Source: Defluviitaleaceae bacterium
GTDB taxonomy: Bacteria; Bacillota; Clostridia; Lachnospirales; WQUN01
DNA: 64,000 nucleotides
Assembly: GCA_009780315.1 (NCBI GenBank)
Contig: WRAH01000005.1
Location: 1 to 64,000 of the forward strand
Direction: 5' to 3'
Shown here: in pieces, positions 39,958 through 46,481 of the stretch
Layout of the letters: every line of letters starts with the position of its first letter
Numbering within the stretch: the first letter of the stretch is position 1
Position numbers and translations under genes: made by a program
Notes under the pieces: generated by a model
Told to the model about the DNA's origin: nothing
Seen by the model: only the letters and a program-made list of their open reading frames with translations
Database searches by the model: none

Positions 39958-40857
39958 TTAGACACCTCCTATGAGTTCGGGGCTAAGTAGCCCTCTATAA
40001 CGTCCATCACCGCTAAGTTTGTCGTTGTAAATGCCAATCACTACATCGACAGGTACATCTTTGCCTATTTGCACCTTATCTGGGCGAAATCCGATGAGCA
40101 TTCCATTGGTTTTGCCAAGGCTTGTGAATGGAATCATTCGGATTCTTGTATAGAAAGACCCTTCGCGGTTTAATAATAACGCGCTAAGGTCGTTTTCCTG
40201 TTTTTCATAAAATAGAATTTTCAGCTTGTCTGGAAGAAAACTTTTTACAAGTTCAAACTCTGCAATAATAACCGATGATTGAGAGATGGGTTCTTTTAAG
40301 CAATGTCCAGTGTCTACCAATGCATCAAATGAACAATCTTTCTCATCTAAAAACACTTGTACATTACATATCATTTGACGCTTTAACAAAAGCTTTTCAT
40401 AAAATCTTATACCTATTTTTATTAAAATATAGCTTGCAACCATGCCCGTTAAAGCTAAATGCCATGAGATAGCACGTGTGAACCCTTCCCAATCTTCTGC
40501 CAATAAATGAACGGCATATGGCAAATCTGTAAGAAAGAACAACGCCATTCCCAACCCACCAATGGTAAATGAAACCCCATAAGCAACGACCATAAGTTTT
40601 AAAAATGGTTTAATGCCTTTTGGATGAAAAACGATTGCTACACCAATAGATAAAATGACTACAGATGCGAGTAGTACATTCATAAATCGCAATGAATAGA
40701 TGACAATAATAAACGTGTATAGCAAAGCCATAACCCCTGCACCAAGTAAAATCCACCTAAACTTACGTGAAATACCCATAATTTTTGCCAACACCCAAAG
40801 TACAAAACCATTCATTATGAAATTCACCAGAAACAACATATCTGCATATACTGTCAT
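39958..40857 (-). CDS. spoIIGA: Sigma-E processing peptidase SpoIIGA
   Basis: Membrane aspartic protease in the sporulation septum that cleaves pro-SigE after a signal from the forespore (SpoIIR). It has 299 residues: five TM helices in the first 155 residues and a cytoplasmic protease domain with catalytic Asp182 in '[12 protein letters not shown]', followed by '[10 protein letters not shown]'. The stop is 1 bp before the sigE start, with the sigE RBS inside spoIIGA, so the two are made together. Confidence 0.95.
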
Positions 40858-40969
40858 ACTGCATCACCTAGGTCAGTATAAGGCTAATGCATATGCGCAA
40901 TTTGTCTTTTCTTTTGATGGAAAGGTGAAATTTTATGTATAAAACTGGAACTCACTTACTTATTGTTAT

Positions 40970-40997
40970 TTGACAAGTTCAAATTTCTGCATATAAT
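40970..40997 (+). promoter_or_regulatory. SigA promoter of the GDPD gene
   Basis: Consensus TTGACA and TATAAT with a 16-bp spacer, 35 bp before the start. Confidence 0.8.
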
Positions 40998-41031
40998 TAT
41001 TAAAGTTTTCTAAATGCTAGGAGAGATTATA

Positions 41032-42075
41032 ATGCAGACTTTGAAGAAAATTTTAAAATGTGCGGGTATTGTCATGGGTACATTCGTATTGCTAGTGTTA
41101 ATATTCCATTTGATTCCCCGCCGTCCAACAATGGAAGCGAATCCATTTATCGTGGGGCGTGGCAATCGTCCTATGGTTGCCGCACATGCTGGTGGGAATT
41201 TAGAATTTCCAGGCAACACACTTGAAGCCATGTTTAATTCATACCATGTTGACCCAAATGTTATGTTTGAGCTTGATGTAAACATGACCCGCGATGGTGT
41301 GATTATATTATCACATTGCCGCACACTTGACCGTAGGTCAAATGTAACAGGATATATACATGACTGGTATTTTGCAGACTTAGTTGAGCAAGAAGTAAGC
41401 TTTGGTTATTTTCATCCTATAGGCTCTAATGGCACCAGACCTCTTGAAATGGATTTGATTCCATATACAAATTATGCAGGGGTTAGCGTCACGCCTCTTG
41501 ACGTTGTATATCCATTAGGCGTTTCTCCGCGTCATGATTACAAATTTTTGGTGACGACATTGGAAGAAGCCATTAGAACATTCCCCAATAATCTGATGAC
41601 TGTAGAAGTAAAACAAAGCGGAGATATTGGATTGCAGTCTGTAGATGCCATTATTGAGCTTATGGAACGTTTAGACGCAGCGTATAACACCTTCGCGCGT
41701 ATAGGGTTAGCATCATTTCATACGTCAAACTTTGAAAGATTTGTGGAGTTGCGTGAAACAACCCACCCTCAACTTATGTTTTCGCCAAGCGGTTCTGGAC
41801 TTAGGCCTGTATATATTGCCCATTGGGTTGGGTTGGACTTCATATATAATCCCCAATTTACTTTAGCGCAAATCCCTACAAGGGAAGGGTCTTTACCATT
41901 GGATACTCGTCATTTTATCCGTGCCCTGCATAGACATAATATAGCTGTGCAATACTGGACTATAAATGATGAAGAAACAATGCGTCATCTTATTTCCCAA
42001 GGTGCTGATGCGATTGTAACAGGCAGACCTACACTGCTTAAAGAAATTTTAGATGAAATTTTTGAACAATATTAA
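41032..42075 (+). CDS. Membrane-anchored glycerophosphodiester phosphodiesterase
   Basis: A 347-residue GDPD-family protein with one N-terminal TM helix (about 12-30), the catalytic domain probably facing outside. Active-site His is in 'VAAHAGGNLEFPGNTLEA'; 'FELDVNMTRDGVIILSHC' supplies Glu, Asp and the second His, although the usual His-Asp of the motif is His-Cys here. 'MTVEVKQSG' and 'YWTINDEETMRHLISQGADAI' complete the barrel. It should release glycerol 3-phosphate from glycerophosphodiesters or lipoteichoic-acid fragments. ATG at 41032 behind AGGAGAG is preferred to 41014. Confidence 0.88.
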   Translation: MQTLKKILKCAGIVMGTFVLLVLIFHLIPRRPTMEANPFIVGRGNRPMVAAHAGGNLEFPGNTLEAMFNSYHVDPNVMFELDVNMTRDGVIILSHCRTLDRRSNVTGYIHDWYFADLVEQEVSFGYFHPIGSNGTRPLEMDLIPYTNYAGVSVTPLDVVYPLGVSPRHDYKFLVTTLEEAIRTFPNNLMTVEVKQSGDIGLQSVDAIIELMERLDAAYNTFARIGLASFHTSNFERFVELRETTHPQLMFSPSGSGLRPVYIAHWVGLDFIYNPQFTLAQIPTREGSLPLDTRHFIRALHRHNIAVQYWTINDEETMRHLISQGADAIVTGRPTLLKEILDEIFEQY

Positions 42076-42863
42076 ATCATTGCTTCAAGTTCACGAATAT
42101 ATGCACCGATGTCATTGATTTGATGTGCATCGGATGCTGTACATATTTTTACATTGTTTTGCTTTAATATATTTAGCAGGTTATTATTTAGTCCAAGTTC
42201 TAAGGCTGGATTGTAGCGCAGTTTTAACCCGCCGTTATTTTCTGTGTACATGTTGTTTTTATTTAACCCGATGGCTAATTTATGATATTGGTCTGTTAAG
42301 TCACAAGTCGGATTATATCCAAAACATTTTATGCTATCAGGATGAGCTAAACCTGTAAATAAACCACTATCACAAAGTTCAAACATAATTTCATAATACC
42401 GATGATACATGTTGTTTACATTTACATTATGCCATAATTCTTTTTGGCTAGGGTCATCAAAAACCCATCCATTGATGGAATGTATACCGCCTGTTAAAAA
42501 GTCGAAACAATATTGTTTTAAAATATTTATCAGCTTGCCAGATGTTTCAGGAATATAGCAAACTTCAAGTCCAAAATTTATTTTAATGGGAAGTTTTCCA
42601 ATAAGGGGTTTAATTGATTGGATAAAATGAAGATAATCTTCTATCGTTCCCCTAAGGTCACTTGTCAACCATTTCCTTTGTGTATGATTGTATTCAATGC
42701 AGGGCGTATAAATTTTTTCAAATTCAAAAAAATGATGGGTATGTTCTAGTAAATATATTTCTTCAAGCCCCATTTCTACTGCCTTTTTTACATAGCTGTC
42801 AAAAAATTCCATACTATAACCGCACTTTGCTCCGTGCAAAAAATGAACATGTACGTCTCTCAT
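42072..42863 (-). CDS. PHP-domain phosphatase, histidinol-phosphatase-like
   Basis: A 263-residue PHP-superfamily metal phosphoesterase resembling HisJ/HisK histidinol phosphatases. Metal-binding motifs are DVHVHF near the N-terminus, 'LLEHTHHFFE', 'FGLEVCYI', 'GGIHSING', 'GLAHPDSI' and 'ASDAHQ'. ATG at 42863 follows GGAGGT; an upstream extension (to 42899) contains the promoter region and is not used. It is divergent from an isolated hisH-hisF-like pair, which supports a pathway link, although that pair may not make histidine. It overlaps the GDPD gene stop by 3-4 nt. Confidence 0.82.
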   Translation of the reverse strand: MRDVHVHFLHGAKCGYSMEFFDSYVKKAVEMGLEEIYLLEHTHHFFEFEKIYTPCIEYNHTQRKWLTSDLRGTIEDYLHFIQSIKPLIGKLPIKINFGLEVCYIPETSGKLINILKQYCFDFLTGGIHSINGWVFDDPSQKELWHNVNVNNMYHRYYEIMFELCDSGLFTGLAHPDSIKCFGYNPTCDLTDQYHKLAIGLNKNNMYTENNGGLKLRYNPALELGLNNNLLNILKQNNVKICTASDAHQINDIGAYIRELEAMI

Positions 42864-42898
42864 ATTCGACACCTCCAAAATAATTATATCATAATCCA

Positions 42899-42927
42899 TT
42901 GACGCATTCTAAGAAGCAATGTATATT
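42899..42927 (+). promoter_or_regulatory. SigA-type promoter of hisH-hisF-like operon
   Basis: TTGACG and TATATT with 17-bp spacing, 33 bp before the GTG start. A TATAAT for the divergent PHP gene lies on the minus strand at 42883-42888. Confidence 0.7.
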
Positions 42928-42959
42928 CTAGTCGAAACCATAACTCGAAGGAGAATATC

Positions 42960-43577
42960 GTGATTAGAATTATTGATTATAAGGCAGGCAACGCCCCAAG
43001 TGTAATGTCCTCAGTGCGGCACTTGGGTTTTAATGCAGAATATGCCAGAAGCGCGCAAGAATTATCTGATGCAACATGTGTAATTTTGCCAGGTGTTGGT
43101 AGTGCAAAAGCAACAATGGAATCACTTAAAGCAATGAATATTTTAACGCAATTAGAAAAAGCAGTTTTAAAAGAAAAAGTGCTATTCCTTGGTGTTTGTG
43201 TAGGTATGCAAATTTTGTTTGAGCATAGCGAAGAAGAAAAGACCGAAGGGCTAGGATGGTTTAAGGGGCGTGTCGTTAAATTTGACCCTGCAAAAGTGCG
43301 TGTTCCCCAAATGGGCTGGAATAAAGTCAAATTTATAAAAAATACACCAGTGCCTACTGAAGATGTGAACAACGCACATTTTTACTATGTAAATTCATAC
43401 CATGCTGTAGTGGATGATAGTGCTGACCTTTGGGGGGTAAGTGATTATAATGGAGAATTAACTGCATGTGTTCAACGTGATAACATCTATGCAATCCAGT
43501 TTCATGCAGAAATAAGCGGTGAAATTGGATTAAAACTGATTAAAAACTTCTTAGATACTGGGGTGAAAATATGTTAA
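42960..43577 (+). CDS. hisH: HisH-like glutamine amidotransferase
   Basis: Class I glutaminase of 205 residues that releases ammonia from glutamine for its partner HisF. Nucleophile Cys80 in 'FLGVCVGMQIL'; His182 and Glu184 in 'QFHAEISG', so the triad is complete. 'DYKAGNAPSVMSSVRHLG' differs from the usual YGMGN. Start GTG behind GAAGGAGA; it overlaps hisF by 7 nt. No other histidine genes are nearby, so the pair could serve another ammonia-dependent reaction. Confidence 0.85.
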   Translation: MIRIIDYKAGNAPSVMSSVRHLGFNAEYARSAQELSDATCVILPGVGSAKATMESLKAMNILTQLEKAVLKEKVLFLGVCVGMQILFEHSEEEKTEGLGWFKGRVVKFDPAKVRVPQMGWNKVKFIKNTPVPTEDVNNAHFYYVNSYHAVVDDSADLWGVSDYNGELTACVQRDNIYAIQFHAEISGEIGLKLIKNFLDTGVKIC

Positions 43578-44350
43578 CAAAGAGACTCATTGCATGTTTT
43601 GATATAATAAATGACCGTGTCACAAAAAATGTGAAGTTTCAAGGTGAACCTGTAGATATTGCCGCTGCGGATACGTTAGCAGCTACAATGTATGCATCAC
43701 AAATTGATGAACTGATGTTATGTGACATAAATGCTGGAAATGAAAAACGCGGAATAAATCTTAATATAATAAAAAAAGTTGCCGCTCATGTGTTTATTCC
43801 CTTTGGGGTAGGGGGCGGCATAAGTGGAATAAGCAGCATGTTTGATGCATTAAAATCTGGTGCAGAGAAAATTAGCCTAGATTCTCTTGCTGTACGCAAC
43901 CCTGAAATAATTAGTGAAGGTGCGAAAGCTTTTGGTGCGCAATGCATTGTTTTACACATTCGTGCGAAAAAAAATGACTTAATGCCTAGCGGATATGAAG
44001 TATATACTGATGGTGCGAAAACCCCTACAAATCTTGATGTTATAACGTGGGCAATAAAAGGTGAATCCCTCGGCGCAGGGGAAATTTGTGTAACAAGTAT
44101 TGACCGTGAAGGTACCTTTCAAGGGTATGACATTTGTTTAATGAAAAAAATTGAATCTGCTGTACGCACTCCGCTCATTGCTTGTGGTGGGGCAGGAAAA
44201 CCTGAGCATTTGCTAGAACTTTTTACAAAAACACAAGTTCAAGCCGCAATCATTAGCAGTATGCTATATTCCCCTTTGCTTAAGGAAAATTACACTGTAA
44301 AATCTTTAAAACAATTCTTATCAGAAAATGGAGTTCCAATGCGCTTGTAA
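43571..44350 (+). CDS. hisF: HisF-like cyclase subunit, second catalytic Asp replaced
   Basis: A 259-residue half-barrel-duplicated TIM barrel homologous to imidazole glycerol phosphate synthase subunit HisF. Conserved are Asp11 (ACFD), Lys19, the gate residues Arg5, Glu47, Lys100 and Glu171, phosphate loops 'GVGGGI' and 'CGGAG', and 'VTSIDREGT'. The second catalytic residue, Asp130 in Thermotoga HisF ('AIDAK'), is Arg131 here ('LHIRAKKN'). Ammonia channelling should be intact but cyclase chemistry is doubtful. Similar HisH/HisF pairs feed ammonia to sugar amidotransferases in some glycan clusters; that role is only a possibility here. Confidence 0.82.
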   Translation: MLTKRLIACFDIINDRVTKNVKFQGEPVDIAAADTLAATMYASQIDELMLCDINAGNEKRGINLNIIKKVAAHVFIPFGVGGGISGISSMFDALKSGAEKISLDSLAVRNPEIISEGAKAFGAQCIVLHIRAKKNDLMPSGYEVYTDGAKTPTNLDVITWAIKGESLGAGEICVTSIDREGTFQGYDICLMKKIESAVRTPLIACGGAGKPEHLLELFTKTQVQAAIISSMLYSPLLKENYTVKSLKQFLSENGVPMRL

Positions 44351-44426
44351 ATTCCAATAGACTTCGCACCGCATATTTCATTCCCGCATACTATGCAAAA
44401 TAGCATATAAACGGGAGTGATTTTTT

Positions 44427-45509
44427 GTGGCAAAAATTGCAATGTATGCAGGACATGGTGGAAGTGACCCTGGCGCAGTTGGAAATGGGCTTATGGAAAA
44501 AAACTTTACCTTAGGAGTCTCAAATCAAGCAAGTAATATCCTGCGTAGTTGGGGATATACTGTGCTTAATAATCGAACGACTGATACTGATAGAAACATT
44601 ACAAGAGACGCAAATCTTGCGAATGAAAATAATGTTGATGCCGTTATAGAATTACATCTCAATAGCAATGCCGGCACTCCAGCCACAGGTACTGAAGCTT
44701 TTATAAGTATCCATGACAAAGGGCAAGCCCGTGCAATTGCAAATGCAATACTCAGCAGAATTGCTACACTAGGATATAGAAACCGAGGCGTAAAAACACA
44801 AGCAAATGCCGCTGGGCAAGATGCTTTTGGTATTATTCGTCAAACTAGAATGCCTGCGGTGCTTGTGGAACTGGCTTTCATAAATAATCCACAAGATATG
44901 GCAAGATTTAATGTAAATGAAATGGCTTTAGCCGTGGCATCGGGTATAAGAGATGTCATACCTATTGGTGAAAATGGAAGCAATAATGGAAGTGGAGCAT
45001 TACCGCCATATCCGGGAACATTGTTGCGTGTAGGGGCAAGTGGAGAATCTGTACGCCAAGTTCAAAGTCGTTTAAACAAAGTAGGGGAGCGTCATTCATC
45101 TATACCTCGTATCAATGAGGATGGTATTTTTGGACCTAAAACTTATGATGCGATAGTTGCTTTTCAAAAACTATTTTCATTAAATCCTGATGGTGTTGTT
45201 GGTCCTTTAACATGGGATAAGCTCATGCAAGAAAGTTATTCAAATGCTGAAAATACTTGCATAATGCCACCATTTGACGGCGTATCAATTCGACCAGGTA
45301 CAACAGGGGAAACTGTACGACAAATGCAATGCTGTTTAAATAGAGTAGGGCAAAGCTATCCTGAAATGTCTCAGTTAGTAGAGGATGGTGTCTTTGGTGT
45401 TAGAACTTTAACTGTAATTACTACATTCCAAAGGATTTTTGGTTTAGTTCCCGATGGAATTGTTGGCTCTTTAACATGGACAGCACTATCACAGGCGTGT
45501 TCGGCATAA
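44427..45509 (+). CDS. Leaderless N-acetylmuramoyl-L-alanine amidase with two peptidoglycan-binding domains
   Basis: A 360-residue enzyme that begins directly with the amidase_3 fold ('MAKIAMYAGHGGSDPGAVGNG'), with no signal peptide. Zinc and catalytic residues: His10, Glu near 24 (LMEKNF), His in 'ELHLNS' and Glu in 'VELAFINN'. Two PG_binding_1 repeats follow (about 202-270 and 287-357; 'GEDGIFG/EDGVFG' style, each with 'TFQ' or 'AFQ' helices). Absence of a signal is known for mother-cell lysis amidases such as CwlC and for phage endolysins. GTG start behind GGGAGTGA. The context has no phage genes. Confidence 0.9.
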   Translation: MAKIAMYAGHGGSDPGAVGNGLMEKNFTLGVSNQASNILRSWGYTVLNNRTTDTDRNITRDANLANENNVDAVIELHLNSNAGTPATGTEAFISIHDKGQARAIANAILSRIATLGYRNRGVKTQANAAGQDAFGIIRQTRMPAVLVELAFINNPQDMARFNVNEMALAVASGIRDVIPIGENGSNNGSGALPPYPGTLLRVGASGESVRQVQSRLNKVGERHSSIPRINEDGIFGPKTYDAIVAFQKLFSLNPDGVVGPLTWDKLMQESYSNAENTCIMPPFDGVSIRPGTTGETVRQMQCCLNRVGQSYPEMSQLVEDGVFGVRTLTVITTFQRIFGLVPDGIVGSLTWTALSQACSA

Positions 45510-45543
45510 AACAACCGAGTCAGTTCCAGATATCTCATAAACG

Positions 45544-45590
45544 AAAACAGCCGTAAAAGCTCTTGATGTCAGAGTTTTTACGGCTGTTTT
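45544..45590. terminator. Bidirectional intrinsic terminator
   Basis: Long 19-bp arm pair beginning AAAACAGCCGTAAAA, with one imperfect position, flanked by A and T runs. It separates the convergent amidase and DUF2785 genes. Confidence 0.92.
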
Positions 45591-45629
45591 ATGATTCAAA
45601 TAGAAGTTTTAATCAAACTTTTTCATAGA

Positions 45630-46481
45630 TTACACTGCTTGTTGGTTATGTGCTTTTTTCCACAGGCTGGATTCATATTCTCTAATAAACAGACGAAGTC
45701 CTGCGGTTGCGGCTTCATCACCTAAGATGAAATGTAGAGAGATTACAAAAGTTTTAATTGTGAACAATGTTTTTACATATGAATGATGTGGGTCTGTGTA
45801 GGTTGGTACGGTAATGTGTGGTATTAAGCTGTTTAACCATTCTGTGATAATAGTGGTATCAAGTCCTTTTTCTACTAATGCAAGTACAACGGCAGCAAGG
45901 CGTTTCTCATCCATATCTGTGAAACTGTGCCCGCATAGCATGTGGATTTTTACACATTCCAAAATTTCCTTTGCAAACGCTATGGGAAATAGGGGACACT
46001 TAACAACCCCGCATAGCATGTCTGCACCATGAGATGCGGCGTGCGCCCATCCCTTACCTGCAACATAGCCACGCCTATCAACTTCACGCTTCATGTAATC
46101 TATGGATTTTTGCAATGCGGTCATATACAACTTTTCTGTTAAAAAGCCTTTATCAACGCCATGCTCTACAAGATAGCCTATGCCAAGAGATGTAAATGAC
46201 CGCCAGAAAACACTGTCGTCCCCTTGCTTACCTAGTCCATTAAACAAATGGCTATCGCTTAAAAAGCTGTTTAGTATTTGTACGCAACTTTCGTTACTTA
46301 AATAATCCAGTTCTAAAAGACCTAGGATATTTTCCCTAAGTAATGAGTTAGGGCTACCTGTATTGTCAAGTAATAGTTTTACAAATTCATCCTCCCCAAG
46401 TTCTGCTATAAGTGCGGGAATGTCTATTTTTCCGTATAAATATGCTTGTTCCATGTCATGTAGTAATTTTTTTAAATCCAT
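45630..46481 (-). CDS. DUF2785 domain protein
   Basis: A 283-residue soluble, mostly helical protein matching the DUF2785 family, whose hallmark 'GKGWAHAASHGADMLCGVV' is present. No catalytic role is established for the family. ATG at 46481 follows AAAGGAGA; a longer frame (to 46502) covers the RBS and is rejected. It is followed upstream on the map by an NCS2-like permease on the same strand (68-bp gap). Confidence 0.8.
   Translation of the reverse strand: MDLKKLLHDMEQAYLYGKIDIPALIAELGEDEFVKLLLDNTGSPNSLLRENILGLLELDYLSNESCVQILNSFLSDSHLFNGLGKQGDDSVFWRSFTSLGIGYLVEHGVDKGFLTEKLYMTALQKSIDYMKREVDRRGYVAGKGWAHAASHGADMLCGVVKCPLFPIAFAKEILECVKIHMLCGHSFTDMDEKRLAAVVLALVEKGLDTTIITEWLNSLIPHITVPTYTDPHHSYVKTLFTIKTFVISLHFILGDEAATAGLRLFIREYESSLWKKAHNQQAV

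Follow-up and report, generated by a model that had tools for sequence, protein, structure and literature searches.

What can a HisH-HisF pair do in a genome in which other enzymes of histidine biosynthesis are not found, and what is to be made of a HisF whose second catalytic Asp is an Arg? This question is raised by a locus in a 64,000-nucleotide stretch of DNA from a Defluviitaleaceae bacterium (assembly GCA_009780315.1, contig WRAH01000005.1, positions 1 to 64,000), referred to here as the window. The initial annotation of this stretch proposed that the pair delivers ammonia to a pathway other than histidine synthesis, together with a phosphatase encoded on the facing strand. Our analysis suggests instead that it is probably a stranded imidazole glycerol phosphate (IGP) synthase, i.e. 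a member of a group of HisF proteins with swapped acid positions, which is now a relic or is taking a new role. The apparently relocated catalytic pair is the point of interest here, and the window copy is most likely a further-diverged descendant of that group.

Sequence and active site of the pair

The features of the pair are as follows (Thermotoga numbering of HisF as in PMC5980557).
42960..43577, + strand: hisH, glutaminase subunit, 205 residues, GTG start, with AAGGAG upstream at 42948-42953
43512..43514, + strand: ATA codon of HisH Ile185, beside the catalytic Glu, at the position of Thermotoga Lys181 (Lys in at least 95% of other HisH rows)
43571..44350, + strand: hisF-like gene, cyclase subunit, 259 residues, overlapping hisH by 7 bases
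43601..43603, + strand: GAT codon of HisF Asp11, kept according to the sequence alignment
43880..43882, + strand: GAT codon of HisF Asp104, end of strand 4 (beta4), at the position of Thermotoga Asn103, a trait common to the whole group
43961..43963, + strand: CGT codon of HisF Arg131, strand 5 (beta5), at the position of Thermotoga Asp130 (Gln in all 85 other rows examined that have Asp on beta4)

The coordinates, the reading frames and the complete catalytic triad of HisH (Cys80-His182-Glu184) are as first described, and HisH passes the TIGR01855 model (202.1 bits, cut-off 105.4). The cyclase is confirmed as a member of the HisF sequence family by PF00977 (190.3 bits). It scores best against the hisF equivalog TIGR00735 (245.8 bits, under the cut-off of 294.55), followed by WbuZ (TIGR03572, 206.7 bits) and AglZ/HisF2 (NF038364, 176.5 bits), whose cut-offs of 299.7 and 310 bits, respectively, are also missed. 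An AlphaFold2 model built from a 26-row alignment has a predicted local distance difference test score (pLDDT) of 94.6. Among the 50 Protein Data Bank (PDB) matches listed for this model, nearly all are HisF or HisF-derived proteins, with template modelling (TM) scores of 0.84-0.91 normalized to the query.

Window HisF retains Asp11, Lys19 and Asp52, as well as Arg5, Glu47, Lys100 and Glu171, which we take to be the ammonia-gate residues; the alignment bears out their reported retention. The catalytic residues of HisF are named as Asp11 and Asp130 in PMC11350729 and PMC5919458. In window HisF, Asp11 is kept, Asp130 is replaced by Arg, and an Asp is found instead at the Asn103 position. Both of these replacements, which the initial annotation had pointed out, are borne out by the codons and the alignment.

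Compared with the HisH-HisF complex of Thermotoga maritima (1gpw, 3zr4; TIGR00735, TIGR01855), the window pair shares the fold, the HisH triad, Asp11, Lys19, the presumed gate residues and the overlap of the two genes. It differs on beta4 (Asn to Asp), on beta5 (Asp to Arg, with Gln in relatives) and at Lys181 of HisH (Ile), as well as in falling under the TIGR00735 cut-off and in residing in a genome where no histidine pathway was found. With regard to Lys181, the title of PDB entry 2wjz describes a K181A/Y138A double mutant of HisH with what we read as constitutive activity ('displays const...').

A HisF group with strand 4 Asp and strand 5 Gln

We use the name Q-type for HisF proteins with Asp on beta4 and Gln on beta5, and group the window copy with them. 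Across 38 genomes of the bacterial family, this group comprises 14 HisF copies, including that of the window and two in genome G020. The other 13 are 53-64% identical to window HisF. Asp occupies beta4 in all 14, while beta5 is Gln in 13 and Arg in the window copy only. Eight further HisF proteins examined in the family are canonical (Asn on beta4, Asp on beta5) and are 36-40% identical to it. Twelve other family genomes carry a Q-type HisF, of which 11 have HisB and 10 have HisD. Apart from the additional Q-type copy in G020, no second HisF showed up in them; the remaining matches are HisA-like (22-28% identical). The second copy of G020 (L041:9637-10398; the other is at L040) has Asn in place of Asp11 and an Asp aligned with Lys19, and hisH is still adjacent to it.

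Q-type genes are found in histidine operons. In G031 (locus L053), hisF comes second in the order hisH-F-G-D-C-B-A-IE, while in G027 (L043/L108) it leads hisF-G-D-C-B-A-IE with no HisH beside it (hisC identified by eye throughout). G032 (L039) has the latter order with one additional open reading frame (ORF) between D and C, also with no HisH beside, and in G023 hisHF lies ~4 kb upstream of the remaining his genes. The HisH search gave no match in 5 of the 12 genomes (G019, G021, G025, G027 and G032). The Q-type protein is the only HisF found in these five, and may use free ammonia.

The acid swap extends beyond the family. A contig scan with the family alignment matched at least 589 stretches, 566 of them encoding relatives, and the best 80 were kept. 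Asp and Gln are found in 76 of these and Asn and Asp in 4, the Asp share being biased since one of the two scan patterns included the beta4 Asp; neither of them covered beta5. By record title, the 76 rows represent 11 phyla, with 40 from Bacillota; many are metagenome-assembled genomes (MAGs) from termite gut, some titles look wrong, and mis-binning may have occurred. HisH lies alongside in 69 of the 80 loci and core his genes occur in the fetched flank of five (L053, L080, L082, L090 and L108). Together with the family genomes, Q-type HisF is thus located within his clusters in G031/L053, G032 (L039), G027 (L043/L108), L080, L082 and L090.

Pooling all sources and leaving out five duplicates of family rows gave 116 aligned HisF proteins. 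Asp on beta4 is paired with Gln on beta5 in 85 and with Arg once, while Asn, Ser or Gly on beta4 is paired with Asp or Glu on beta5 in 30; there are no mixed rows. A quick maximum likelihood tree computed without the beta4 and beta5 columns requires a single change of the beta4 state and places 83 Q-type rows on one fully supported branch. The Q-type rows L127, L129 and L131 branch nearby, and a single origin is not shown because support for the set of all 86 is 22%. The tree, which had been suggested as a check, places window HisF within the Q-type group, several of whose members lie in his operons. Hence, the swapped positions are not private to the window.

To what extent Q-type HisF serves histidine synthesis was assessed in 50 genomes, drawn from 50 of the 80 loci. 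One of these (G085) represents a canonical-HisF locus, leaving 49. Strong PF00977 matches outside known loci were typed by best reference match and by residues, and the 39 remaining were all at known loci. In 20 of the 49 genomes a further protein is scored as HisF, although in three (G070, G071 and G084) it lacks Asp11, and for the G071 protein WbuZ is the best-scoring model, though its cut-off is missed. The Q-type protein is the sole acid-complete HisF found in 32 of the 49. Among these 32, HisB is found in 30 (not in G052 and G069), HisB and HisD in 26, and both plus a clear HisA in 19. HisA is clear in 22, partial or weak in G040, G048 and G079, represented by diverged PF00977 matches only in G038, G053 and G076, and not found in G046, G047, G052 and G069. 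Of all 49, for which completeness is not given, 47 have HisB and 43 have HisD; gaps in MAGs can mimic gene absence.

As the only acid-complete HisF in many apparent prototrophs and as a member of his operons, Q-type HisF most likely makes IGP, judging from gene content and context. The support from gene co-occurrence is strong but not conclusive. Weighing against this role, 17 of the 49 genomes also carry a canonical HisF, all 17 with HisB and HisD, and the Q-type copy there may be extra or specialized and not necessarily a histidine enzyme. In any case, loss of Asp130 alone is no argument against histidine synthesis, because a large group of proteins without it sits in his operons.

A possible mechanism is that the second catalytic carboxylate has moved from beta5 to beta4, with Gln in its old place, and that the window copy, in which Asp104 would be the catalytic acid, added the change from Gln to Arg after the pathway was lost. 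On the alignments at hand we consider the chances of this to be evenly balanced. Such a relocation, if true, would be a naturally occurring shift of a catalytic acid in a TIM-barrel active site that is among the best studied, and if many apparently histidine-making bacteria use this HisF, its mechanism is less rigid than has been assumed. Literature searches on natural HisF variants, HisF similarity networks, HisH/HisF K181/D98, and hisF/hisH with guaA/pyrG gave no match; we do not claim the absence of the swap from print beyond these searches. There is also a practical consequence: five of six other Q-type rows scored under the TIGR00735 cut-off (230.2-290 bits), with Poribacteria L131 over it (345.1 bits). 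Counting the window, six of seven Q-type rows tested are thus not recognized by the equivalog, and prototrophs may be miscalled.

Two of the genomes surveyed, G052 (L067) and G069 (L093), resemble the window genome in having Q-type hisHF with no HisB, HisD or HisA found. Separately, a HisF-like gene at L184 (G084, titled Micromonosporaceae) adjoins a HisA gene and has Gly at the Asp11 position. The Q-type HisF that is also present in G084 may cover the HisF step; HisD was not found there.

Fate of the pair in the window genome

The window genome (2.9 Mb, 95.55% complete) has a single HisF. Whole-genome family searches found no HisA, HisB, HisD or HisI; HisG, HisE and HisC were not searched for. 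The only other PF00977 match (21.6 bits) is an ORF inside a fatty-acid gene cluster that was read by eye as FabK-like, and was rejected as a second HisF or HisA. Thus, the absence of other his genes near the pair, noted at the outset, holds genome-wide for these four families, and the second canonical hisF-hisH pair, hisA and hisI that were to be looked for did not turn up. It had also been said that being the only HisF of a histidine prototroph would speak against a separate function. The protein is indeed the only HisF, but the genome is apparently not that of a prototroph. In G030, the sole congener compared (93% complete), HisB, HisD and HisI were not found and neither window protein had a match; PF00977 was not run there. 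The window species looks like a histidine auxotroph. Since neither HisA nor HisI was found, there is no known route to N'-[(5'-phosphoribulosyl)formimino]-5-aminoimidazole-4-carboxamide ribonucleotide (PRFAR), the substrate of HisF, and ordinary IGP synthesis by the pair is unlikely. Separation of the pair from other his genes has a parallel in Roseburia, where hisF and hisH form their own operon, for which the authors propose a demand for 5-aminoimidazole-4-carboxamide ribonucleotide (AICAR) as the reason (PMC7478625). Unlike the window genome, Roseburia is described there as a predicted prototroph.

The following scenario would account for these findings. The pair would descend from a glutamine-dependent IGP synthase, in which the HisH glutaminase feeds ammonia through the HisF barrel. 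In the relatives, the products of the Q-type enzyme are most likely IGP, for histidine, and AICAR, for purines. The window genome would have inherited the pair vertically from Q-type ancestors and then lost hisA, hisB, hisD and hisI, and probably hisG, hisC and hisE as well. With no known supply of PRFAR, the stranded pair would now be diverging (Gln131Arg and other active-site changes), either as a relic not yet lost, presumably without present function, or on the way to another role. It looks like an amidotransferase caught after loss of its pathway.

The divergence of the window copy is consistent with this scenario. In the tree, its HisF clusters with the proteins from G023, G024 and G026 (Shimodaira-Hasegawa-like approximate likelihood ratio test, SH-aLRT, 89, not starred), genomes that carry HisB and HisD. 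The end branch of window HisF (0.64) is the longest among Q-type rows, and the protein deviates at 10 of 71 positions that are at least 97% conserved, the highest number among 86 distinct rows, whose median is 0. Window HisH deviates at 7 of 48 positions that are at least 95% conserved, including the Ile at Lys181, which is the most of 73 distinct rows in a comparison that left out ORFs of at least 260 residues.

Several observations weigh against a stranded, decaying enzyme. Neither frame is interrupted, and their overlap is that of a coupled pair, suggesting recent selection. Four of the ten HisF deviations (129, 131, 175 and 205) are at active-site strands, which would also be compatible with an altered function, and the end branch of HisH is ordinary (0.42 vs. 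a median of 0.34). Furthermore, identities to G026 are 64% for HisF and 60% for HisH, and because those of other orthologues overlap with them (60-74%, four usable genes), the acceleration of HisF is not proof of decay. Finally, the assembly is incomplete, and a his cluster could sit in a gap.

The intact overlapping genes, persisting without a known route to PRFAR, and the clustering of the active-site changes could also point to repurposing, whereby ammonia still comes from HisH and the HisF bearing Arg131 and Asp104 aminates or cyclizes another phosphorylated substrate in a non-histidine pathway. A Q-type pair among non-his genes on a Streptomyces plasmid (L050, see below) adds to this. No partner gene, however, is found in the window slot, where the neighbouring PHP and amidase genes are conserved in G030 without hisHF, and a WbuX-type sugar amidotransferase was not found in the genome (best match 31.5 bits vs. 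a cut-off of 203.2). We regard repurposing as less likely than the stranded enzyme, though it is the main alternative. Of the ammonia-delivery idea originally put forward, the separation from the histidine pathway stands, as the genome seems to have none; the O-antigen type of module is not supported, as there is no WbuX over the cut-off and the cyclase scores closer to HisF.

That the pair is instead an ordinary IGP synthase of a prototroph, which tolerates Arg131 and whose other his genes fall into an assembly gap, is improbable. Completeness is 95.55%, relatives appear prototrophic, and a single gap could be enough, since hisGDCBA-IE forms one ~5 kb cluster in several of them. Nevertheless, four families (HisA, HisB, HisD and HisI) are missing together, and in G030 HisB, HisD and HisI were likewise not found, nor was there a match to either HisF or HisH.

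The isolation of the pair and the significant though weaker matches to TIGR03572 and NF038364 recall the HisF2/HisH2, WbuZ and AglZ modules of sugar amidation (extra hisF2/hisH2 copies are reported for Bacteroidota and Chlorobiota in PMC8305728). We rejected such a module as very improbable: both cut-offs are missed with scores under that for HisF, WbuX is lacking, and the HisF2 of an Azospirillum sugar locus (L212), which lies next to an N-acetyl sugar amidotransferase and close to further sugar genes, has Asn on beta4 and keeps the acid on beta5 as Glu. Similarly, L181, which scores best as WbuZ under the cut-off, has lost Asp11 and kept Asp130, the opposite of the window. An Acinetobacter plasmid match considered as a sugar-type HisF2 was dropped, as no hisH or sugar genes are annotated there.

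Replacement of Asp130 could also have shifted HisF toward TrpF (phosphoribosylanthranilate isomerase) activity, which an engineered HisF Asp130Val is reported to gain, although a literature search for HisF D130V gave no match. The title of 4ewn records a structure of HisF D130V+D176V with rCdRP, yet Arg is unlike Val and the HisH partner is retained, making this scarcely credible.

Genomic slot and neighbourhoods

Divergent from hisH lies the gene that had been thought to act with the pair.
42072..42866, - strand: PHP-domain phosphoesterase gene (PF02811, 38.8 bits), a neighbour not judged to be part of the system

A start at 42866 is likelier than one at 42899, as the G030 homologue aligns from 42866. 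The orientation is as described; the protein scores 70.9 bits against TIGR01856 (HisJ), under the cut-off of 90.2. Its homologue in G030 is 74-75% identical, in a genome with no HisH or HisF match, and the amidase gene on the other flank of the slot is 75% identical between G030 and the window over 200 residues on the G030 contig. Between the PHP and amidase genes, G030 has purB and purA where the window has hisH and hisF. Because the PHP gene sits beside purB-purA in G030, and not beside hisHF, it is a neighbour rather than a partner, and we ruled it out as a functional partner of hisHF. A search of the 38 family genomes for the PHP protein matched, beyond the window genome and G030, only G036, and weakly (23.6 bits). 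Rfam gave no riboswitch or T-box over 40800-45700, and a promoter scan gave 6 matches, no excess over a mean of 7.1 in shuffled sequence.

Recurring neighbour families were also sought in the 1.18 Mb of sequence fetched around the 80 loci, disregarding the antisense and mis-framed ORFs that the clustering also gave. These include guaA (14 loci), pyrG (11), gatA (8), glnA, carB and dapF (6 each), dapL (5), a relative of a cyanophycin-type ABC transporter (4), purA (3) and purB (2). A gene present once per 2.5 Mb genome would be expected at about 0.5 loci, but the loci are not independent and the counts are without a canonical-HisF control. Most of these neighbours are purine genes or encode users of glutamine, in keeping with a common control by nitrogen or AICAR. 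At six loci (L054, L060, L067, L069, L072 and L074, in MAGs titled Oscillospiraceae, Coriobacteriia, Treponema and Clostridiales), hisHF is near guaA, pyrG, carB, glnA or gatA, possibly forming a glutamine-amidotransferase island.

On the plasmid of Streptomyces sp. NBC_01462 (NZ_CP109471.1; L050:9342-19910), a Q-type hisH-hisF pair faces a HisA/HisF-like gene. Instead of his genes, the surroundings encode two phosphoribosyltransferases, a HAD hydrolase, a class V aminotransferase and a large protein with a methyltransferase domain, and the locus looks like a specialized-metabolite cluster with a his-like route.

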